Of a stretch of DNA of 42,911 nucleotides, positions 8,349 through 34,315 are shown piece by piece. Position 1 is the stretch's first letter; each line of letters opens with the position of its first letter. The DNA is from a virus. The notes under the pieces were generated by a model. It was not told the DNA's origin. It saw nothing but the letters and a program-made list of their open reading frames with translations, and ran no database searches. A program made the translations under genes and the position numbers. Location of the stretch: positions 1 through 42,911 of the IMG/VR virus record IMGVR_UViG_3300040801_002747. One strand, written 5' to 3'.

Positions 8349-8506
8349 TTTTATACACATTGCTAGCAGTAAACGTACTGCTCACATTCTTCTTGTATCG
8401 TCGCGTGAACGTTGTTGCGAAGCATCTAAGCGACAATCAAGTCAGGATCGCCGATGCTATCACGACTGTGGTCAATGAGCTCGAGAAAGTGGAGGTCAAA
8501 GGATGA
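8345..8506 (+). CDS. 53-aa single-pass membrane protein
   Basis: The GTG start overlaps the preceding stop (GTGA). Residues about 2-18 (ILYTLLAVNVLLTFFLY) form a membrane helix followed by RR and a charged amphipathic helix. The tight overlap with the prepilin-like gene suggests that the two act together. Holin/antiholin or inner-membrane anchor are possible; none can be proven. Confidence 0.65.
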   Translation: MILYTLLAVNVLLTFFLYRRVNVVAKHLSDNQVRIADAITTVVNELEKVEVKG

Positions 8507-15906: not shown

Positions 15907-16731
15907 GTTGCAATTCGTTGTTTGAGTGATTTACATTGTGAGTTCACCAACGGTAACTATCAACTCCCCGTTATGGATGACGAGGAGAACACCGTTCTTT
16001 GTTATGCTGGTGATCTTGGTGTTGCCGATCAGCCGACAACATATTGTGAACTCATGGAAGAGTGGTGTGGTCGGTTCAAAGCAGTTATGTATATACCTGG
16101 AAATCATGAGCACTACAAGAGTTCCATCTGGCGTACTACCGAAAAGATCAACAGGAATCTTGAGTTCTACATCAAAGGCGGTAAGCCGGACAACCTTCAC
16201 TTCGATGACTTCTTCTCGGTTGTTGTTGATGACGTAGCATTCATTTGTGCCACTATGTGGGCAAATTTTGATAACGGTAATCCGGTAGCGATGGCCAACG
16301 CTGGTTTGATGATGAACGATTATCGCGTCATCCGCAATGGACCATCCAAAATGGATCCATACAAGTGGAAGCTTCAACCAGTTCACACATACGAGTTGTA
16401 CAAACAACAATCAGCGTACGTTCATCGGAAACTGAATGAGTACCGTGAAAGGGGTATGAAAACAGTTGTGATGACACACCACGCTCCATCGTTCCAATCA
16501 ATATCGCCTCACTATGCTGGTAGCGATTTGAACGCAGCATATGCATCAGAATTATACAATGCATACAGCGACGATGCCATGCCTATATTACACATACACG
16601 GCCATGTCCACGATAGCTTTGACTACATGCTTGGAGATACACGTGTCGTTTGTAACCCCAGGGGATATTTGAATATGGGACCGGGTGATTTAAACTCAAA
16701 GTTTAATCCGAATCTTGTAATTGATGTTTGA
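15904..16731 (+). CDS. Calcineurin-like metallophosphoesterase
   Basis: 275 aa, ATG at 15904. All metal motifs are present: SDLH (residues 8-11), GDLG, GNHEHY, THHAPS and HGHVH. Closest in look to MPP-superfamily phosphoesterases of phages and bacteria that hydrolyse phosphodiesters or phosphomonoesters. The substrate cannot be told from sequence. Its 3' end overlaps the convergent GIY-YIG gene by 29 bp. Confidence 0.88.
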   Translation: MVAIRCLSDLHCEFTNGNYQLPVMDDEENTVLCYAGDLGVADQPTTYCELMEEWCGRFKAVMYIPGNHEHYKSSIWRTTEKINRNLEFYIKGGKPDNLHFDDFFSVVVDDVAFICATMWANFDNGNPVAMANAGLMMNDYRVIRNGPSKMDPYKWKLQPVHTYELYKQQSAYVHRKLNEYRERGMKTVVMTHHAPSFQSISPHYAGSDLNAAYASELYNAYSDDAMPILHIHGHVHDSFDYMLGDTRVVCNPRGYLNMGPGDLNSKFNPNLVIDV

Positions 16732-17311
16732 GTATAGTGCGTAGTGTGTCATAAGTTAAGTTTAACTCTCGGCACGCTTCGGCTTTTGATTCGTATTTTT
16801 TACCATCAATAACAACTGGTTGTTTTCTGGTATGCGCCGCGCTCATTTTATTTTTGGTAGCCGTAGAGTGTTTACGCCCCAACATCGTACCTGGTTTACC
16901 GTAGCTTGGATTATCTCTACCAGACTTACCGGGGTGATAGGATTTGCCTTTATGCATCTCGCTCATGCGGCGACGTCGCTCTTCGGACCATTTAACCTTT
17001 TTTGTGTATCCATATGATTCGCCACCGGCTGATGAGTTGTATCCAGATTTGTATGTATCCATTTCATCTATCAACACCTTCTCGCGTTCGGTAGCCTGGC
17101 GTAGTGTTAACCCTTCTTCTAAAGGAACCATGTTCCAAACGTCAACACCATACTTGCGTATAGCGTTTGGCAACTTGTGGTTGTGTTTTGTATTTTTTGC
17201 TGAACTCTTATGTGAAGTCCACCGACGGTTCAATGACGTCCTTGTAATTCCAACATATTTCTTCTGTGTGACAGTATTCATCAACAGGTAAACAGTGTAT
17301 AATGGTTTCAT
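16703..17311 (-). CDS. GIY-YIG homing endonuclease, copy A
   Basis: 202 aa. The start is the ATG at 17311; the longer frame begins beyond the promoter. TVYLLMNTVTQKKYVGITR (about residues 5-23) is the GIY-YIG signature and is followed by RRWTSHK. Central NUMOD3-like repeats (HKGKSYHPGKSGRDNPSYGK) and a C-terminal NUMOD1-like helix pair (YESKAEACRELNLTYDTLR) bind DNA. It is clearly paralogous to the gene at 17828. TATAAATA precedes the ATG by 5 nt. Confidence 0.9.
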   Translation of the reverse strand: MKPLYTVYLLMNTVTQKKYVGITRTSLNRRWTSHKSSAKNTKHNHKLPNAIRKYGVDVWNMVPLEEGLTLRQATEREKVLIDEMDTYKSGYNSSAGGESYGYTKKVKWSEERRRRMSEMHKGKSYHPGKSGRDNPSYGKPGTMLGRKHSTATKNKMSAAHTRKQPVVIDGKKYESKAEACRELNLTYDTLRTILKHQLQDSD

Positions 17312-17316
17312 GTGCT

Positions 17317-17324
17317 TATTTATA
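17317..17324 (-). promoter_or_regulatory. T4-type late promoter, 5 nt before the start
   Basis: Perfect TATAAATA on the minus strand, then AGCAC and ATG. No Shine-Dalgarno; the predicted mRNA is leaderless. Confidence 0.65.
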
Positions 17325-17367
17325 AACTTATCCACGTGGTTAAGTTGGCACAACGGGTAATAGAAGT

Positions 17368-17547
17368 ATGAAATACACAACAGTAGAATATATCGTACAA
17401 CGATTCAGCAGCAATAACGGAGTTGAGGAGGTGGTACTTTGTCACACCGAGATTGCTGTGCTAGCAGCTCGTGATCAACTTAAACTGAACCACCCTGAAT
17501 GGGACTTGGAAGCAATAAAACGAACGACCATAGAGGAACTGGTATGA
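17368..17547 (+). CDS. Hypothetical protein, 59 aa
   Basis: ATG at 17368. A small alpha/beta protein ending HPEWDLEAIKRTTIEELV. It overlaps the next gene by four bases (ATGA). Together with the next two ORFs it forms a small operon trapped between the two GIY-YIG genes. Confidence 0.6.
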   Translation: MKYTTVEYIVQRFSSNNGVEEVVLCHTEIAVLAARDQLKLNHPEWDLEAIKRTTIEELV

Positions 17548-17827: not shown

Positions 17828-18424
17828 TCAGCTGTCTTGAAGATATTTGTTAAGACGCGTTAATCCCCAGTGGAGATCTTTACACGCTTCGGTTTTTGAT
17901 CGATAGTGGGTTCCCTCCACAACAACAGGTGTTCGTTTGTGTTGATGATCACTCATTTTATTTCTTGCGCTGGTTGAGTGTGTCTTGCCTAACATTGTAC
18001 CGGGTTTACCGTATCTGGGGTTTTCCTTTCCAGGCATGCCTGGATGGTAAGATTTGCCCTTGTGTAGATCGCTCATTTTCTTTTTCTTTTCTTCTGTCCA
18101 TCGTGGCTTTGGCGTATAACCGTAAGCCTCTCCACCTAAAGAAGAATTGTAGCCTTCAAGCAAAGAGTTGTGTTGCTGAATCATTTCTTTTTCAACTTCA
18201 ACAGCGCGCTCCAAGGTTAAACCACCAACAAGTTCTTCGATAGACCAACAGTCAGTTCCGTATTTTCTGATAGCGTTTAATAGCTTCCGGCTCTTCTTTA
18301 CGTGCTTGGCGTTAGATTTGTGGTATGTCCATCGTCGAGTAAGGCCGATTCCAGTCATCCCAATATAAACTTTATTGGTGATTGAATTAGTTAATTTATA
18401 TACTTGATATTTTCTCGTTTCCAC
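17828..18424 (-). CDS. GIY-YIG homing endonuclease, copy B
   Basis: 198 aa, GTG start at 18424. QVYKLTNSITNKVYIGMTG (residues 7-25) is the GIY-YIG motif, then RRWTYHK; NUMOD3-like repeats with HKGKSYHPGMPGKENPRYGK and a C-terminal NUMOD1-like module follow. It shares nearly its whole design and many identical blocks with the gene at 16703. TATAAATA, CTAAT, GTG at its start: the same leaderless geometry as copy A. Confidence 0.9.
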   Translation of the reverse strand: METRKYQVYKLTNSITNKVYIGMTGIGLTRRWTYHKSNAKHVKKSRKLLNAIRKYGTDCWSIEELVGGLTLERAVEVEKEMIQQHNSLLEGYNSSLGGEAYGYTPKPRWTEEKKKKMSDLHKGKSYHPGMPGKENPRYGKPGTMLGKTHSTSARNKMSDHQHKRTPVVVEGTHYRSKTEACKDLHWGLTRLNKYLQDS

Positions 18425-18500: not shown

Positions 18501-18770
18501 ATGAAACTATGCGACTTGTTTGAAGAAGAAGGATACAACATTGACGACGCTATGACATGCGATGGCAATAGTGGTGCAAACGAAATAGGTAACCTGGCCC
18601 GCCGTGATTCGAAGGAAAATCTTTCGACTACGGGCCGTGGAACCAACTACGAGAAAGCGAAACGCATTATTGGTGGAGCTAAACTAGCAAAAAAAGACTC
18701 GATTATTGTTCGGGACGATACGACCGAGCAGCATGGGCAGAACTTCACAACGTCAAACGCTAGGAGATAA
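18501..18770 (+). CDS. MKLCDL protein, candidate capsid-targeted protein
   Basis: 89 aa from the ATG at 18501. It begins MKLCDLFEEEGYNIDD. The body is Asn/Asp/Gly-rich, then basic (RRDSKEN, YEKAKRIIGGAKLAKKD). The N-terminal signature is shared with at least eight proteins in this window. It may be an internal head protein; inferred from T4 biology. The next gene starts two bases after its stop. Confidence 0.6.
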   Translation: MKLCDLFEEEGYNIDDAMTCDGNSGANEIGNLARRDSKENLSTTGRGTNYEKAKRIIGGAKLAKKDSIIVRDDTTEQHGQNFTTSNARR

Positions 18771-18963: not shown

Positions 18964-18988
18964 TCGTGGGGTAGTAAACCTGTATACT
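18959..18988 (+). promoter_or_regulatory. Sigma70-type promoter of clpX
   Basis: TTGATC (18960-18965), about 17-bp spacer, TATACT (18983-18988), expected +1 18995. A 38-nt leader follows. Confidence 0.65.
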
Positions 18989-19032
18989 TGTCATCAGTAG
19001 CCAACCGTTACACAACCAACGAAGATAACCAT

Positions 19033-20313
19033 ATGACGAAGAAAGATGTTACAACCTCGGGCGTTACTTGTTCTTTTTGTGGCAAGAATCAAGACGAAGT
19101 TAATAAACTAATTGCAGGTCCATCCGTTCACATTTGTGATGAGTGTATCACATTATGTGAAGACATAATGTCGAAGGACATGGCAGAAGATGCTGCCTCG
19201 TCATCTGACAGCAAACCCCTCCCCACCCCCAGTGAAATTCACACCTTCCTCAACCAATATATCATTGGACAGGATAGCGCAAAGCGGATCCTCTCAGTGG
19301 CAGTGTACAATCACTACAAGCGCATTGAATGTGCATCCACCCACAAAGACGGTGACGTTGAGTTGACCAAGAGTAATGTTCTGATAGCGGGCCCAACCGG
19401 TTGTGGTAAAACACTATTGGCTGAGACTTTAGCTCGGGTAATTGATGTACCGTTTGCAATTGCTGATGCAACATCACTAACTGAAGCAGGGTATGTTGGC
19501 GAAGATGTTGAAAACGTTCTCGTCAAACTACTGGCTAATTGCGATGGTGATATTGAAAAAGCAGCACACGGCATCATATATATCGATGAAATCGACAAAA
19601 TTGGACGCAAATCTGAGAACACCTCAATCACTCGTGATGTATCTGGTGAGGGTGTGCAACAAGCTCTTTTGAAAATGATCGAAGGTACTGTGGTGAATGT
19701 ACCGACAAAAGGTGGACGTAAGCACCCAGGCGGTGAGACAGTTACACTCGATACGAAAAACATCCTATTCATTGTTGGTGGTGCTTTCTCGGGTCTGGAA
19801 GCTGTGCTACGAGCCAAAAATGAAAAGAAGTCCGGTATAGGCTTTGCTGCTTCAGTCTCTTCTAAAGATGATGAAGCCGACAAGAAGAATACCGGTGAGC
19901 TGTTGCGTGATGTGCAATCCAGTGACTTTGTTCAGTTTGGACTGATCCCCGAATTTGTTGGCCGCTTGCCAATTGTTGCAACTCTCGAGAATCTGGACGA
20001 AGACGCGTTGGTCCAGATATTGACAGAACCCAAGAATGCCATCACAAAACAGTTCAGCAAGTTGTTGGGTATGGATGGTGTTGAAGTTGAATTCACTGAT
20101 GAAGCGTTGCGGGCTATCGCGAAGAAAGCTATCGAGCGTGAAACGGGAGCGCGTGGACTGCGAACGATTTTGGAGACGGCATTGCTGTCAACCATGTATG
20201 ATCTGCCTGACCGCAAGAACGTTGTTCGAGTAATCATCAACGATGATGTGATTAGTGGTGTGGCACTTCCGGAACTGGTTGAAGAAACCAAAGATCTGGT
20301 AGTTATCAGCTAG
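19033..20313 (+). CDS. clpX: ClpX-like unfoldase ATPase
   Basis: 426 aa, close to the length of bacterial ClpX (about 424). The N-terminal zinc-binding domain has four Cys (13, 16, 35, 38: CSFC, then CDEC). Walker A GPTGCGKT (about 120-127), pore loop GYVGED, Walker [12 protein letters not shown], then [19 protein letters not shown] and a sensor arginine region. The ClpP-docking IGF loop is present (KSGIGFAA, about residue 269), so it could pair with host ClpP. A full-length ClpX is unusual in a phage. It may redirect host proteolysis or remodel phage complexes. Start at ATG 19033; the longer frame from 18988 begins inside the promoter. Confidence 0.93.
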
Positions 20314-20422: not shown

Positions 20423-21457
20423 ATGAAGAAATATGACACAGTAGTGTACATTGGTCGATTCCGACCACCCCACCTTGCTCACATTGAAACAATGAAGCGA
20501 GCATTGGAAGCAGGCAACCAGTTGTTGGTTATCGTTGGTTCTGCGAATCAGCCCAGGACTGTAAAAAATCCTTGGACTGTAAGTGAAGTTGAAGTGATGA
20601 TCAAGTCTTCGCTTCCCGAAGATGTACGGGAGCGTGTAATGGTATTACCTCTGCGGGATACAGCATACAACGACCAAGCGTGGGTTCAACAAGTTCAAGA
20701 CAAAGTACGAGCCGTCACAGAACCATCAGATGTAGTTGGTCTCATTGGCCACTCAAAGGATGAATCATCCTACTACCTGAAGATGTTCCCACAATGGGAT
20801 CACATCGAGATGGAAAACATCAACGACATCCATGCTACAGACATTCGCAATGCTTACTTCGAAGCGAATGGCGACATGACGAACTTTGATTTTAAGATTG
20901 GTCGTAACCTTCCACCAGCCATTCATGACTTCATGAAAGCATTTGCTCATACCAGCGACTACGAAACCCTGGTCAATGAGTACAAGTTTCTGGTTGCTCA
21001 TGCAAAGATGTGGGAAGATGCACCATACCCACCCATGTTCATCACGACAGATGCTGTTGTTGTTCAGTCTGGCCATGTACTTTTGGTAAAGCGTCGCGCT
21101 GAACCTGGTAAGAATTTGTGGGCGATTCCTGGAGGTTATCTGAATCAAAAAGAGTACATCATTGATGGTTTGATTCGAGAGCTGCGTGAAGAAACAATGC
21201 TGAAGGTGCCGGGTCCTGTCCTTCGTGGTTCTATCAAATACACCGGCGTGTATGATGCTCCAGATAGAAGTCCCCGTGGTCGTATTGTTACTCATGCTTC
21301 ACTGATTGAATTGCCAGCTGGCCCGTTACCACCCGTCAAAGGATCAGATGATGCTGAGAAGGCCAAATGGATTCCACTGAGTGTGTTCGAGCGAATGGAA
21401 GAACAGATGTTCGAAGATCATTTCCACATCATACGAGACCTTTTGGGTAAGATGTAA
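20423..21457 (+). CDS. natV: NMN adenylyltransferase/Nudix bifunctional protein (NatV-like)
   Basis: 344 aa. N-terminal nucleotidyltransferase: GRFRPPHLAH (residues 11-20, GxFxPxHxxH) and the IHATDIRN motif near residue 135. C-terminal Nudix hydrolase, box near residues 236-258: GGYLNQKEYIIDGLIRELRE then ETML, where the usual Gly of REUXEEXGU is Met. It joins ATP to NMN to make NAD; the Nudix half likely hydrolyses ADP-ribose or NAD derivatives. KVP40 NatV has the same two-domain order. With NadV (25578) it gives a two-step route from nicotinamide to NAD. Confidence 0.92.
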   Translation: MKKYDTVVYIGRFRPPHLAHIETMKRALEAGNQLLVIVGSANQPRTVKNPWTVSEVEVMIKSSLPEDVRERVMVLPLRDTAYNDQAWVQQVQDKVRAVTEPSDVVGLIGHSKDESSYYLKMFPQWDHIEMENINDIHATDIRNAYFEANGDMTNFDFKIGRNLPPAIHDFMKAFAHTSDYETLVNEYKFLVAHAKMWEDAPYPPMFITTDAVVVQSGHVLLVKRRAEPGKNLWAIPGGYLNQKEYIIDGLIRELREETMLKVPGPVLRGSIKYTGVYDAPDRSPRGRIVTHASLIELPAGPLPPVKGSDDAEKAKWIPLSVFERMEEQMFEDHFHIIRDLLGKM

Positions 21458-23350: not shown

Positions 23351-23554
23351 ATGAGACTAGAAGACATAGCAAATGTGACGCCTGCCGTCACTGTAGATAC
23401 CAAAAATCCGATACGTGATGCGATCAGATCGCGTAAGACTGCGGGCATCAAGGCTGCATTGCTTCAGAATCAACGAAACAAGGATGGTGTCGACAATGCC
23501 CCAATTATGACGGGTGGTGGTGATATTAAGGACTGTGGGGAGCACAACCCGTGA
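23351..23554 (+). CDS. MRLEDI protein, small basic with Gly/Asp tail
   Basis: 67 aa. N-terminal MRLEDIANVTP signature, basic middle (RDAIRSRKTAGIKAALLQNQRNKDG), then NAPIMTGGGDIKDCG. It is a clear paralogue in layout of the protein at 25217 (same order AI..KK..IxA..D..N..I..G.GD). Predicted internal head or packaged protein. Confidence 0.65.
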   Translation: MRLEDIANVTPAVTVDTKNPIRDAIRSRKTAGIKAALLQNQRNKDGVDNAPIMTGGGDIKDCGEHNP

Positions 23555-24315
23555 AGCTAGTGGATCTGAAGGAAGCAGCGGTTGTTAAGATGATTCTCGG
23601 CAACATTCCATTCATTAAACGAAAGGACACCACAACACCTGTTGATTTCCGAAAACTCAAGTATCTTGGGTCAGGTGTTGAAGCTGACGTATATGGAGCT
23701 ACGAAAGCTGGCAAGGTGGTTAAAATATTGAGATTCCCTCAAGGGTTTGATTATAACGGAGTTCAGAATAATCCTTTCCTACATTATGTGTCGATGTGTT
23801 TGCATAATGTTAGTAACCCATACTTCCCAAAGTTCATGAGCGCGAAGGTGTATGAGATTCCATTCAAATCAGATAAACAATCTGACAACAACACCATGCG
23901 TGACGAGATGGATCGTGACATGACTGTTGACCACCCCGATCGACCATCAGACTTCATGTTGATTGTTATAATGGAACACTTACTCGAGCTTGATGAAATC
24001 GACTTGGATGATGGCGAGCGCGTGTTCAATGAACATGGAATGACGCTTGATGCCACTGATGCTGAAATAGATACCAACAAACGTGGTGATAAAGGATACA
24101 TATCACTCCGATCATTGGGCATGGACAATAAGAATCTGAAACGTGTACTCAATAATACAAACAATCCTGAGTTCCACGACGCTCTCAAGAAACTGGCTCC
24201 ACTGTTCAAACGATTTGGTGGTGATACGCACTCTGGAAATTTGATGTTCCGTAGTGTTGGTGATGGTTATCAACTTGTATTCACTGACCCACTATACCCC
24301 GAGGAGTTGCACTAA
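23551..24315 (+). CDS. Kinase-fold protein A with MKLVDL N-terminus
   Basis: 254 aa, GTG start overlapping the previous stop (GTGA). After the MKLVDLKEAA signature comes a nucleotide-binding loop (LGSGVEADVYGA) and the Lys of KVVKILR (VAIK-like). The catalytic-type motif GGDTHSGNLMF (HxDxxxxN-like) is followed by FTDPL in place of DFG. This is the protein/aminoglycoside kinase fold in reduced form; a pseudokinase is possible because the His-Arg-Asp is degenerate. The paralogue at 24506 has the same motifs. If the signature is a capsid-targeting peptide, it would be injected with the genome. Confidence 0.7.
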   Translation: MKLVDLKEAAVVKMILGNIPFIKRKDTTTPVDFRKLKYLGSGVEADVYGATKAGKVVKILRFPQGFDYNGVQNNPFLHYVSMCLHNVSNPYFPKFMSAKVYEIPFKSDKQSDNNTMRDEMDRDMTVDHPDRPSDFMLIVIMEHLLELDEIDLDDGERVFNEHGMTLDATDAEIDTNKRGDKGYISLRSLGMDNKNLKRVLNNTNNPEFHDALKKLAPLFKRFGGDTHSGNLMFRSVGDGYQLVFTDPLYPEELH

Positions 24316-24509
24316 TGAAACTAAAAGACATTATGCTGGAGGCTGGAGTTCAAGGCGTCAAGAGCAACAAGAAAAAGAAGAAAAGGAAAAAGCCAACCAC
24401 GATTGTCGGTTATGGTGGCCTTGGTGGTTATGGTGCTTACACAAGTGGTATCACCGATGGTACAAATGGTGATTTCAGTTCTGGTGGTGATGGCGGAGGC
24501 GGTGAGTGA
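24315..24509 (+). CDS. MKLKDI protein, basic with Gly-rich tail
   Basis: 64 aa. MKLKDIMLEAG at the N-terminus, a poly-Lys stretch (SNKKKKKRKK), then Gly/Tyr-rich sequence ending GDGGGGE. It lies exactly between the two kinase-fold genes with one-base and four-base overlaps. IMLE followed by AG fits a T4 gp21-like protease site (Leu/Ile-X-Glu before a small residue). Probably a packaged, DNA-binding peptide; inferred. Confidence 0.65.
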   Translation: MKLKDIMLEAGVQGVKSNKKKKKRKKPTTIVGYGGLGGYGAYTSGITDGTNGDFSSGGDGGGGE

Positions 24510-25213
24510 AACTCGTTGACCTAATGGAAGCCAGGACCGTTGAACGCATTCATGGCATTCCTGTTATTGAATCTGACCCTGATGGCGTTATTAATCTTTC
24601 CAAGATGAAGCACGCTGGTTCTGGTATTGAAGGTGATGTATACTTCACAAACGATGGCAACAAAGTCATTAAGGCCGTGCGCCTCAGATATCAGGGTGGT
24701 ATTGAACATAGCCCATTTGTTGAGTTTGTTGGCCTGTGTCTTGAAAATAAGAACAACCCATACTTCCCGAAGATCCACAACGCCAAGATATACAAGATTA
24801 AGGAAAGAAATGAGAAGCACGTGACGAGTAAGAAGATGGGTCCTGTCAATGCTGCTCGTCGTCGACAGCGTGGTGAATTATCTGCGGCCAGTCCATACCT
24901 ATTGGTCGTTACAATGGAAACGTTGGCCCCCATCGCCCGTAAAGATAAAGATAAGATAGAGCCAATATTCAACAGCGTTGGATTGAGCCTAGAAGCTGGT
25001 AGCCACGACCACGAACACACTTCCACGATTGGCAAGGATCATTTGTCAACGGAACGTGTGATTAACAATACTTCGGATAGCAATCTGCGGGCGGCTCTAC
25101 AGCTACTGGAACCACTTTTCAAGAAGCACGGTGGTGACCTTCACATAGACAACTGGATGATGCGTGGTGACCAGATTGTTATCGTTGATCCACTACAACC
25201 ATTTTTGGGATAA
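24506..25213 (+). CDS. Kinase-fold protein B with MKLVDL N-terminus
   Basis: 235 aa, GTG start overlapping the previous stop. It repeats the plan of kinase A: MKLVDLMEAR, GSGIEGDVYFT, KVIKAVR, then ENKNNPYFPKIHNAKIYKI, LLVVTMETL, and GGDLHIDNWMM with VDPL. Two adjacent diverged paralogues suggest duplication followed by specialisation. The role could be phosphorylation of a host target or, if inactive, binding one. Confidence 0.7.
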   Translation: MKLVDLMEARTVERIHGIPVIESDPDGVINLSKMKHAGSGIEGDVYFTNDGNKVIKAVRLRYQGGIEHSPFVEFVGLCLENKNNPYFPKIHNAKIYKIKERNEKHVTSKKMGPVNAARRRQRGELSAASPYLLVVTMETLAPIARKDKDKIEPIFNSVGLSLEAGSHDHEHTSTIGKDHLSTERVINNTSDSNLRAALQLLEPLFKKHGGDLHIDNWMMRGDQIVIVDPLQPFLG

Positions 25214-25216
25214 TAC

Positions 25217-25435
25217 ATGAAACTGGATGACATAGTGGATACACAGCCAAAGACGCGCAAGATGCGAAATGCGATCAAGCACAAGAAGTTAGCATCCGCC
25301 ATTGACGCGTTATCAAAGGACAAGCAAAACTCTGACAAACATCGCGCCAACAATACACAGATTGGTACAGGCGTTGGTGACTATAATGACGAGGGTGAGT
25401 TTGATAGTGGTGATACCAACATGGGTGAGTTGTAA
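25217..25435 (+). CDS. MKLDDI protein, small basic with Gly/Asp tail
   Basis: 72 aa. MKLDDIVDTQ, basic helical middle (KMRNAIKHKKLASAIDAL), then ANNTQIGTGVGDYNDEGEF and an acidic tail. It mirrors 23351 residue pattern by residue pattern and is the last gene of the cluster. Confidence 0.65.
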   Translation: MKLDDIVDTQPKTRKMRNAIKHKKLASAIDALSKDKQNSDKHRANNTQIGTGVGDYNDEGEFDSGDTNMGEL

Positions 25436-25577: not shown

Positions 25578-26960
25578 ATGCAAAAAAATATTATTTTAAA
25601 CACCGATTCATACAAAGCCAGCCAATGGGTACAATACCCACCAAACACAACAAGTGTTTCCTCTTACATAGAGGCACGAGGCGGCGAATTCGAAGAGACA
25701 GTTTTCTTCGGCCTTCAGATGTTCATCAAAGAATATCTCACTACCCCTATCACCACTGAAATGATTGACGAAGCCGAATGGTTTCTGAAAGCTCATGGCG
25801 AGCCGTTCAACCGCTCTGGATGGGAATATATTGTCAATCAACACAAAGGTCGTCTTCCGATCCGCATATCTGCTGTTCCAGAAGGCACCGTTGTACCGAC
25901 AAGCAATGTCCTGTGTCAAGTAGAGAATACTGACCCATTGTGCTTCTGGCTGACTTCTTATATCGAAACTGCCCTGTTGCGTGGTATTTGGTATGCAACC
26001 ACTGTCGCTACCAAGAGCCGTGAAACCAAGAAAGTAATTCAACAATATCTGGTTGATACAGCGGACGAAGATGCACTGGGTGGACTTCCGTTCAAACTGC
26101 ACGATTTCGGTGCTAGAGGGGTTAGTTCGTACGAATCTGCTGGCATTGGTGGTGCTGCACATCTTGTGAATTTCATGGGAACTGACACGATGACGGGAGC
26201 TCTGTTCGCGATGAAGTATTACAACGAAACTGAAGTACCTGGTTTTAGTGTTCCAGCTTCTGAACACAGCACAATTACTTCATGGATGAAGGAAGGTGAA
26301 TTAGACGCTTACAGAAATATGTTCAAGCAATTCGGCGGTGAATATCCGATCGTGTCAGTTGTCTCTGACAGCTACGATATCTACAACGCTGTTGAAAATA
26401 TGTGGGGCGGAGAATTAAAGGACATGGTAGAACAGTCCGGATCAATGTTGGTTGTCAGACCCGATTCTGGCGAGCCAGCTGAAGTTGTGGTGAAGGTAGC
26501 TCTCTTGTTGGATGCGACATTCGGTAGTACTGTCAATTCGAAAGGATACAAGGTGCTGAACAATGTTAGAATTTTACAGGGTGATGGACTAAACAACATT
26601 GGAGACTTTGTTAAAATTCTAGCTAAACTGAAAGGTTATAATTTTTCTACCGACAATGTCGTTTTTGGTCAAGGTGGTGGGCTTCTACAACAGGTGAACA
26701 GAGACACATGTAAATTTGCAATGAAGTGTTCTTCAATTACCGTCGATGGTGAACAGCGTGACGTGTACAAAGATCCTATTACCGATTCGGGTAAGCGTTC
26801 CAAGAAAGGACGCCTGGCACTCGTGGACATCAACGGTGTGTTGACTACGGTTGCTGAAGCTGAAGCTTGTGAGAATAACCTACTCGAGGTGGTTTTCGAG
26901 AACGGGAAGCTCATCAAGGATGAGACATTCGCTGACATTCGAGACCGTGCTAGCGTTTAA
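25578..26960 (+). CDS. nadV: Nicotinamide phosphoribosyltransferase (NadV)
   Basis: 460 aa, the usual length of NAMPT-type enzymes. Motifs: NTDSYKASQWVQYPPNTT (N-terminal), FHDFGARG-like HDFGARGVSS (about residue 172), GTDTMTG, VPASEHSTI, SVVSDSYD, VVRPDSGEP and GQGGGLLQ. These match the nicotinate/nicotinamide phosphoribosyltransferase fold, NadV branch. It converts nicotinamide and PRPP to NMN; NatV then makes NAD. The gene is monocistronic with a structured leader. The minus-strand membrane gene overlaps its last 81 bases. Confidence 0.93.
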   Translation: MQKNIILNTDSYKASQWVQYPPNTTSVSSYIEARGGEFEETVFFGLQMFIKEYLTTPITTEMIDEAEWFLKAHGEPFNRSGWEYIVNQHKGRLPIRISAVPEGTVVPTSNVLCQVENTDPLCFWLTSYIETALLRGIWYATTVATKSRETKKVIQQYLVDTADEDALGGLPFKLHDFGARGVSSYESAGIGGAAHLVNFMGTDTMTGALFAMKYYNETEVPGFSVPASEHSTITSWMKEGELDAYRNMFKQFGGEYPIVSVVSDSYDIYNAVENMWGGELKDMVEQSGSMLVVRPDSGEPAEVVVKVALLLDATFGSTVNSKGYKVLNNVRILQGDGLNNIGDFVKILAKLKGYNFSTDNVVFGQGGGLLQQVNRDTCKFAMKCSSITVDGEQRDVYKDPITDSGKRSKKGRLALVDINGVLTTVAEAEACENNLLEVVFENGKLIKDETFADIRDRASV

Positions 26961-28936: not shown

Positions 28937-29704
28937 ATGACACACCTCGAAGACAATTACAAAAAGCTGGATCTCGACACGACGCAACGACATTTTGTGT
29001 TCGGTGACATTCATGGACACTTTGGCACCTTTCTTGACCTGTTAAATCTTATCAACTATGACGAGGAACGGGATGTTATATACTCTGTTGGAGACTTGAT
29101 TGACCGTGGACCACAGTCAACAGAGGTTGTTGAGTTCTGGGAGAATCACCCGAAGCGTCACGTCACACGCGGCAATCACGAACAGATGCTCGTCGCATTT
29201 GGTAAGTGGGAAAGCTGCTGGATGTATGCACCTAATGGTGGTCCAGCAACACTTGCATCACTTGCTGATAGAGACAGGAGCATTGAGTGGTTGAAGGATT
29301 TTTGTCGTTCACTGCCTATCGTCATCGATGTAGGTGACAATGATGACCCAAATGCTTTTCGAATCGTACACGCCGAGCACCCTGCTATAATGTCCAATGA
29401 AGACATTATGCGTATTTTGGAACACACCTCTACCGAAGACCTTGGTGAAAGTGATTTGTTGTGGAGTCGCAATGATATCACAACAGCACTGCAAAACGTA
29501 TCCAGAATGTTGCCAACCACACACAACGTGCAAATCAATCCAAACTGGGGCAGTCGAAAGACTTATTCTGGACATACGCCAGTTAAGAATAGTGTGGTGA
29601 AGATGGGACACCAGCACTGGATCGATACTTCATGGGGTGATACTATGACTTGTGTTGAAGTATTGACAGATAAGGCTTACAGCACTAAGCTGCTTCGACA
29701 ATGA
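28937..29704 (+). CDS. Lambda-type serine/threonine protein phosphatase
   Basis: 255 aa. GDIHG (residues 23-27), GDLIDRG (52-58), GNHE (79-82) and a C-terminal SGHTPV give the full bacteriophage-lambda-phosphatase (PP1/calcineurin) metal and phosphate set. It would remove phosphates from Ser/Thr, and possibly other residues. In the company of two kinase-like proteins it may reverse host or phage kinase activity, or defuse phosphorylation-based defence. Overlaps the next start by four bases. Confidence 0.9.
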   Translation: MTHLEDNYKKLDLDTTQRHFVFGDIHGHFGTFLDLLNLINYDEERDVIYSVGDLIDRGPQSTEVVEFWENHPKRHVTRGNHEQMLVAFGKWESCWMYAPNGGPATLASLADRDRSIEWLKDFCRSLPIVIDVGDNDDPNAFRIVHAEHPAIMSNEDIMRILEHTSTEDLGESDLLWSRNDITTALQNVSRMLPTTHNVQINPNWGSRKTYSGHTPVKNSVVKMGHQHWIDTSWGDTMTCVEVLTDKAYSTKLLRQ

Positions 29705-33060: not shown

Positions 33061-33945
33061 ATGAAACTAACAGAGTTGACAGAAAACAAGAAAGCACTTG
33101 GCGAAATCGGTGCTGGACGGATTAAACAGAATGATATTACTCCAACTCTGTCATATTTCGCGAAACTGTCGGGTGTACCAATCAGACATCTGCACAAGAT
33201 TGGATCGACGGGAAAACTAGCATCTAGTGGTGATATCGATATTGCCATCGACACAACCATTCACAAACACGAAAAAGTTCACACTACCCTGGTGTCAGCA
33301 CTTGGTGCTGACAAAGTTACTAGTAACCACGGGACAGGTGTCACGTCATATGCTATTCCAATCAAAGGCGACGAAAAGAACGGCTTGGTACAAGTTGATG
33401 TGATGTATGTTGCCAACGTTGAATGGGCTAAGTTCTCATACCATTCGGCTGGGGATCGATCACGCTACAAGGGTGCTGTGCGAACTATACTGATATCCGC
33501 AGTCGCTGCAGCTCTCAATACAAAAGGCACAGATTATTTCGAGTACACAGATGATGGATCTTTGTCCATTAGAGCAGGGCGTTCGCTGGATCTGAATCAA
33601 GGTCTGCGCCGTATCTTCCAATATCTGCCCGACCGCAAAGATGGTAAAGGCAAGATGAAGAATATGAAATCTATACCGATTGACGATTTTAAAGAGATGT
33701 TTCCGGAAGTTGAAGTAAATAATGGACAGGTGATAATCGATGAACCAGAAAGGGTTGTTAAAATGCTGTTCGGTGGATCCGTAACACCATCTGATGTAGA
33801 ATCAGCGGAACAGGTGCTTTCGTTGATTAAACGTAAATTTAGCGATGAAGAACAAACGAAGATTTTTGACATTGCCCGGAAACGTGCAAAGGGCTTATCG
33901 GCCAAAATGAGACTACCGGCGGAAATATCTGATGAAACTGAATGA
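33061..33945 (+). CDS. Nucleotidyltransferase with MKLTEL N-terminus
   Basis: 294 aa. IGSTGKLASSGDIDIAID (about residues 43-60) is the Pol-beta superfamily GS...DxD motif and VQVDVMYV (about residue 105) supplies the third acid. So it could transfer nucleotides to RNA, DNA, small molecules or protein side chains. The N-terminus MKLTELTEN belongs to the shared signature family. Together these suggest a packaged effector that modifies a host target early in infection. Overlaps the next gene by 14 bases. Confidence 0.75.
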   Translation: MKLTELTENKKALGEIGAGRIKQNDITPTLSYFAKLSGVPIRHLHKIGSTGKLASSGDIDIAIDTTIHKHEKVHTTLVSALGADKVTSNHGTGVTSYAIPIKGDEKNGLVQVDVMYVANVEWAKFSYHSAGDRSRYKGAVRTILISAVAAALNTKGTDYFEYTDDGSLSIRAGRSLDLNQGLRRIFQYLPDRKDGKGKMKNMKSIPIDDFKEMFPEVEVNNGQVIIDEPERVVKMLFGGSVTPSDVESAEQVLSLIKRKFSDEEQTKIFDIARKRAKGLSAKMRLPAEISDETE

Positions 33946-34315
33946 AATCCTGAACGAATCAACAACTGAGACATATCTTGTAAATTTGAAAGACGGAGCT
34001 GGGTTCAATGTAACCGCTTCTTCTTCACAAGAAGCCCGTGAAAAAGCGAAAGGTAAGCTACGTGCCGGTCAGGTAATCAAGAACGTCATTAAGGATGTTC
34101 AGGGTTCGAGTGACCTCGAATCCAAGAAGTCCAAACTGAAAAAGTTCGTTGAGAACAGCCGCAACCTGCAAAAGGAACCTTCTCAACAGAAGAAGTTCAT
34201 CCGTCAAATAGACAACGCTACCACTGCTGGCAAGCTTCAAACAATATCAGATGCAATAAGTGCGTACGGCGATAAGTCAGACACGAAGAAAGAGCAGAGA
34301 GACGACAAAGACTAG
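33932..34315 (+). CDS. MKLNEI protein, candidate internal head protein
   Basis: 127 aa, ATG inside the previous gene. MKLNEILNEST has Ile-Leu-Asn-Glu before Ser, which fits the T4 gp21 cleavage rule well (Leu/Ile-X-Glu). The rest is highly charged and basic (KKSKLKKFVENSRN, QQKKFIRQ), low in hydrophobics, like a DNA-associated head protein. Confidence 0.65.
   Translation: MKLNEILNESTTETYLVNLKDGAGFNVTASSSQEAREKAKGKLRAGQVIKNVIKDVQGSSDLESKKSKLKKFVENSRNLQKEPSQQKKFIRQIDNATTAGKLQTISDAISAYGDKSDTKKEQRDDKD

Follow-up and report, generated by a model that had tools for sequence, protein, structure and literature searches.

Tandem T7 gp0.7-type protein kinases carrying a putative capsid-targeting sequence in a viral genome fragment

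Two kinase paralogues in a row of tagged genes

The window analyzed here is a 42.9-kb IMG/VR virus fragment (IMGVR_UViG_3300040801_002747, positions 1 to 42,911). Its plus strand carries two genes, K1 (23551–24315, 254 aa) and K2 (24506–25213, 235 aa), both with a GTG start. The sequence-only reading had described them as adjacent kinase-fold paralogues flanking a poly-Lys protein in a chain of overlapping genes, and this description holds. K1 and K2 are open reading frames that align end to end with 36% identity (145 bits, E = 1e-47), and the ORF between them (24315–24509) encodes a 64-residue Lys-rich mini-protein of pI 9.6 (MKLKDIMLEA...KKKKKRKK). The chain extends further, to tagged mini-proteins of 67 residues (MRLEDIANVT..., 23351–23554) and 72 residues (MKLDDIVDT..., 25217–25435) at the two outer ends, giving five tagged ORFs in a row on one strand. 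The first four overlap by 1–4 bases, and the last starts 3 bases after K2. GTGA junctions at the starts of K1 (23551) and K2 (24506) each overlap the upstream stop codon, while the junction at 24315 reads TAATG; Shine-Dalgarno-like sites precede K1 (GGGGAG), the Lys-rich mini-protein (GGAG), and K2 (GGAGG). The overlaps suggest that the kinases and the tagged mini-proteins are translated as a coupled set.

Each kinase begins with the candidate tag MKLVDLxEA, read as a putative capsid-targeting sequence under the motif rule described for T4 (PMC9026906): MKLVDLKE↓A in K1 (23551–23577, motif LKE) and, by comparison, MKLVDLME↓A in K2 (24506–24532), where the arrow marks the predicted cut. The nine tag codons of K1 (GTG AAG CTA GTG GAT CTG AAG GAA GCA) and K2 (GTG AAA CTC GTT GAC CTA ATG GAA GCC) differ by six synonymous changes and one replacement, so the peptide itself is probably under selection. 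The two outer mini-proteins are paralogues of each other, and have Asn or Asp in the tag where the cleavage Glu is expected; such an Asp stops the processing of T4 IPIII and leaves its targeting intact (PMC9026906). Similar tags occur elsewhere on the plus strand, in an 89-residue protein (MKLCDLFEEEG..., 18501–18770) and at a second site of the tag, where a 294-residue protein (MKLTELTEN...GSTGKLASSGDIDIAID, 33061–33945), nucleotidyltransferase-like by eye and lacking a Pfam or PHROG match, is followed by a basic protein of 127 residues and pI 9.5 (MKLNEILNES..., 33932–34315).

The kinase cassette is flanked by genes for a bifunctional NadM-like cytidylyltransferase-Nudix protein (20423–21457) and a NAMPT (25578–26960), likely a pair for NAD+ salvage, a type of function proposed to act against NAD-depleting defenses. 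A NinI-like Ser/Thr protein phosphatase (28937–29704; phrog_246, 7e-45) is encoded 3.7 kb downstream of the kinases. The window also encodes a ClpX-like AAA+ unfoldase with an N-terminal zinc finger (18988–20313) and, on the minus strand, two similar ORFs that resemble GIY-YIG-type endonucleases by eye (16703–17380 and 17828–18424).

Kinase family and predicted fold

K1 matched the T7 kinase family phrog_15752 (5.9e-8), K2 alone gave a non-significant 0.09 against it, and neither protein matched Pfam up to E = 10. A PDB sequence search returned nothing significant, tblastn in phage records found none for K1 and two weak matches for K2, and IMG/VR scans with K1 or K2 as single proteins found nothing. 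An alignment of the two paralogues, used instead for the IMG/VR search, reached relatives in contigs of 28 to 372 kb; a scan of genome contigs with the pattern used found no cellular relative. Among the aligned family members, 10 of 14 matched phrog_15752. By profile-profile comparison (hhalign), the K1/K2 family aligned with T7-type kinases at E = 1.7e-13 (prob 98; ∼16% identity in the alignment) and with a set from Rhizobium, Pseudomonas, Stenotrophomonas, Vibrio, and DSS3 phages at 2.5e-22.

The motifs picked out by the sequence-only reading are present in K1 and K2, respectively, as the loops GSGVEADVY and GSGIEGDVY, the lysine motifs VVK and VIK, and the catalytic stretches GGDTHSGN...TDPL and GGDLHIDN...VDPL. 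The catalytic Asp is D225 in K1 and D211 in K2; it is conserved across the family together with the β3 Lys, the Asn, and the metal-binding Asp. T7 gp0.7 reads FDMHSGNIM...ITDP where K1 reads GDTHSGNLM...FTDP, and K1 and K2 share with T7 gp0.7 and JSS1_004 (phrog_15752) the kinase core, the LGxG loop, the V-I-K lysine, the D-x-H-x-x-N-x-M ... DP signature, and a core ending soon after DP. Unlike these proteins, K1 and K2 are two tandem copies, bear a capsid-type N-terminal tag, and have no C-terminal shutoff domain. The basic host-transcription shutoff domain of full-length gp0.7 is absent from both, which end within ∼10 residues of DP; they are thus kinase-domain members of the family rather than full gp0.7 orthologues. 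Several T7-like homologues likewise match in the kinase part only.

Structure prediction points the same way. The K2 model is good (pLDDT 81.4, pTM 0.80) and shows a protein-kinase core ending at the DFG-equivalent; the K1 model is of moderate quality (pLDDT 63.6). Both retrieved protein kinases in PDB structure searches. For K2, the best Foldseek match was haspin (4.1e-4), and the best VIA-align scores were modest for both models (K1, Z 8.8, rmsd 3.5, 143 aligned; K2, Z 9.8, rmsd 3.5, 138 aligned), with most aligned ranges stopping around the target's DFG region. Matches of the K1 model in BFVD include annotated T7-like kinases. The sequence-only reading had named protein kinases, HipA, and aminoglycoside kinases as structures for comparison. 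Both models retrieved the first, HipA was not among the fold matches shown, and a few K2 matches to APH(2'')-Ia and FN3K were mixed in with the protein kinases. Residues 1–7 of K2 were modeled with low confidence, as for a propeptide, so its tag is likely flexible. Profile relationship, catalytic signature (Lys, D-x-H-x-x-N, DP), and predicted protein-kinase fold all place K1 and K2 in the gp0.7-type family.

The suggestion of a pseudokinase arose from the apparent degeneracy of the catalytic motifs; K1 and K2 would then act as inactive kinase-fold decoys or binding scaffolds. HRD and DFG are indeed absent in canonical spelling, the αC Glu is not conserved, and the core stops near the DFG-equivalent, leaving no activation segment. 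However, T7 gp0.7 is an active kinase and itself carries D-x-H-x-x-N ... DP, which makes this the normal signature of the family rather than a degenerate one. Family members also retain all four of these positions: the Lys, the catalytic Asp, the Asn, and the metal-binding Asp. We therefore regard inactive proteins as very improbable. The sequences of K1 and K2 point to a tandem pair of paralogous gp0.7-type kinases and do not suggest pseudokinases.

The N-terminal tag compared with T4 capsid targeting

The tag resembles a capsid-targeting sequence (CTS) of T4 type. In T4, gp21 cleaves at an L/I-X-E motif, and foreign proteins need only the CTS to be packaged and delivered (PMC9026906). The putative propeptides of K1 and K2 end in [L/I]xE and, at eight residues, are shorter than those of the T4 internal proteins (10–19) and longer than the six-residue propeptide of Alt, an injected ADP-ribosyltransferase cut after ITE-6 (PMC5694885). 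The tag pattern was found in 8 of 61 window ORFs, where 200 shuffles averaged 0.9 and never exceeded 3, and in 19 ORFs of the G001 contig (shuffle mean 5.1, maximum 11); the strict MK-Φ-x-[DE]-Φ pattern showed no excess in G004 or W01. For a generic T4-like CTS regular expression, the counts in most genomes did not clearly exceed those after shuffling (W01, 8 against a mean of 3.3 and maximum of 8; others within range), and we therefore based the tag statistics on the stricter pattern.

ORFs with the MK-Φ-x-[DE]-Φ pattern carried [L/I]xE in the N-terminal region far more often than other ORFs, both in the window (5/7, p = 2e-5) and in the pooled genomes (30/38, p = 8e-29). Because the targeting and cleavage patterns have one hydrophobic position in common, the test was repeated on ORFs with Leu or Ile at that position, and the coupling persisted (p = 0.001 in the window, 5.6e-20 pooled). 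These p-values are indicative, since the ORFs were called mechanically and the tagged genes of one genome may be related.

Peptidase_S77, the T4-type prohead protease, is encoded in eight of the nine family-bearing records of at least 168 kb (G001, G002, G004, G005, G007, RHph_I1_18, Milchi, and DLP6). It was found neither in the window fragment, which has no head genes either, nor in the 171.6-kb G003 or the tested contigs under 135 kb. A search via the ClpX and NAMPT genes for a larger, closer relative of the window yielded nothing beyond an identical piece of 5.9 kb and some distant contigs. In five S77-bearing genomes, the pre-sequence of the major capsid protein (MCP) has LxE, resembling the tag ends, at the would-be mature start (LNE, LTE, LME, LNE, LQE; sites read by eye). 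In Rhizobium phage RHph_I1_18, a kinase relative, EVB91_002, bears the T4-like tag MKSFSEHIAES and adjoins a tagged gene that, with its tagged neighbors, looks ADP-ribosyltransferase-like by eye (in Pfam, just PARP at 0.028 for one); the same genome holds MAKTYKEFIAEAR, a near-match to the start of T4 IPII, MKTYQEFIAEAR.

Virion delivery, which the sequence-only reading had likened to that of T4 Alt, is thus supported by inference from the tag statistics, the coupling to the cleavage motif, S77 in nearly all large relatives, and the T4-like tags of RHph_I1_18; Alt does not stand as the best analogue. K1 and K2 share with Alt the idea of a capsid-carried enzyme modifying host proteins, but the enzyme class differs, no sequence relation is seen, and Alt additionally undergoes C-terminal processing. 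The internal proteins IPI, IPII, and IPIII of T4 offer a better comparison. Like K1 and K2, they begin with a short tag that has hydrophobic positions and an [L/I]xE cleavage motif, and several unrelated tagged proteins, small basic ones among them, occur per genome. They differ in the letters of the tag (MKLxDL/I.. here, MKTYQEFIAE in T4) and in their cargo, an enzyme here and inhibitors of GmrSD restriction enzymes in T4 (PMC12373910).

Several observations count against capsid loading: the cleavage Glu is absent from two tagged neighbors (23351 and 25217), some relatives are untagged, and neither the window fragment nor G003 gave an S77 match. The tag is absent from family members in Milchi, DLP6, Vibrio 1.170.O, and DSS3 phages, and in Milchi and DLP6 this is so although both genomes encode S77. 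Known gp0.7-type kinases are early-expressed proteins. K1 and K2 could likewise be ordinary early kinases whose tag serves another purpose, such as localization, degradation, or translation-initiation context. The untagged relatives just named would fit, as would the NAD-salvage and nucleotide genes around the cassette and the lack of a late promoter (TATAAATA) close upstream of it. Five T4-late-promoter-like TATAAATA sites lie elsewhere in the window (1767, 17317, 18430, 37920, and 39120), against 1.25 expected; 2 of 100 shuffles reach five, and none of the sites is near the kinases. Against such a role, the tag is coupled to [L/I]xE and occurs on many unrelated proteins, an S77 protease accompanies it in large relatives, and one relative bears a T4-like tag in a genome holding a near-perfect T4 CTS. 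We consider the early-expression explanation unlikely.

Relatives, proposed role, and implications

The kinase family has from one to about five copies per genome. In contig G005 (L122:5036–8652), three kinase paralogues are clustered, and two of them flank a tagged Lys-rich mini-protein, the arrangement also seen in the window; a frameshift at about 8416–8441 splits the third. The Lys-rich mini-proteins of the two loci have the tag, the position, and the Lys run in common, a likeness for which we do not claim homology. NAD-salvage and phosphoesterase genes lie nearby in the window, DLP6, and Milchi alike, the phosphoesterase genes of the latter two being close to the kinases. The 372-kb phage contig G001 encodes two further proteins with similar tags, one HicA toxin-like (L100:6143–6385, 1.9e-8) and one GNAT-like (L100:632–1021, 5.1e-5, under Pfam's cut-off).

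We think it fairly probable that K1 and K2 are gp0.7-type kinases loaded into the capsid and co-injected to phosphorylate host proteins, probably those of defense systems. In this mechanism, the MKLVDL peptide would bind the prohead core and bring the kinases into the prohead, where the S77 prohead protease of the phage would cut after LKE or LME, motifs present in the two proteins, and free the mature kinases in the head. These would enter the next host along with the DNA and use ATP to phosphorylate host proteins, likeliest those of defense and gene expression as judged from the family, before phage gene expression. With two diverged copies, the pair would probably cover more targets or divide them between its members. 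The T7-like, gp0.7-type kinase JSS1_004 provides a precedent, as it phosphorylates DndFGH, CasD, HerA, and QatABCD and so disables these defenses (PMC12345140), and the T4 internal proteins are likewise injected anti-defense proteins that block GmrSD restriction (PMC12373910).

Packaged kinases might instead act on the phage itself as particles assemble or eject their DNA, phosphorylating the prohead core, the capsid, or the tagged mini-proteins packaged with them. A common tag would bring the kinases and these putative substrates into one compartment, and a family member in G004 lies ∼4 kb from the MCP gene. We judge this improbable, as the known targets of the family are host proteins (PMC12345140) and the variable copy number would fit accessory host-interaction genes better than assembly genes.

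Host-directed, capsid-borne kinases may also belong to something larger. More tentatively, we propose that large T4-related phages could carry a virion-borne effector set, marked by an MK[LIV]x[DE][LI]..E tag and comprising gp0.7-type kinases together with nucleotidyltransferase-like, ART-like, GNAT-like, and HicA-like proteins, preloaded and injected so that host proteins would be phosphorylated before any phage gene is read. The Lys-rich mini-protein of the window may stand in for the basic domain of gp0.7 that K1 and K2 lack.

Searches of the open literature yielded no description of a phage kinase with a capsid tag; coverage of the kinase-family literature was incomplete, and novelty is provisional. 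If the proposal is correct, a capsid-borne kinase would act at time zero, ahead of a restriction or abortive-infection response, and the known capsid cargo of T4, inhibitors and an ADP-ribosyltransferase, would be extended to protein kinases. The tag would also offer an easy way to pick out candidate injected effectors in large phages that have not been cultured.
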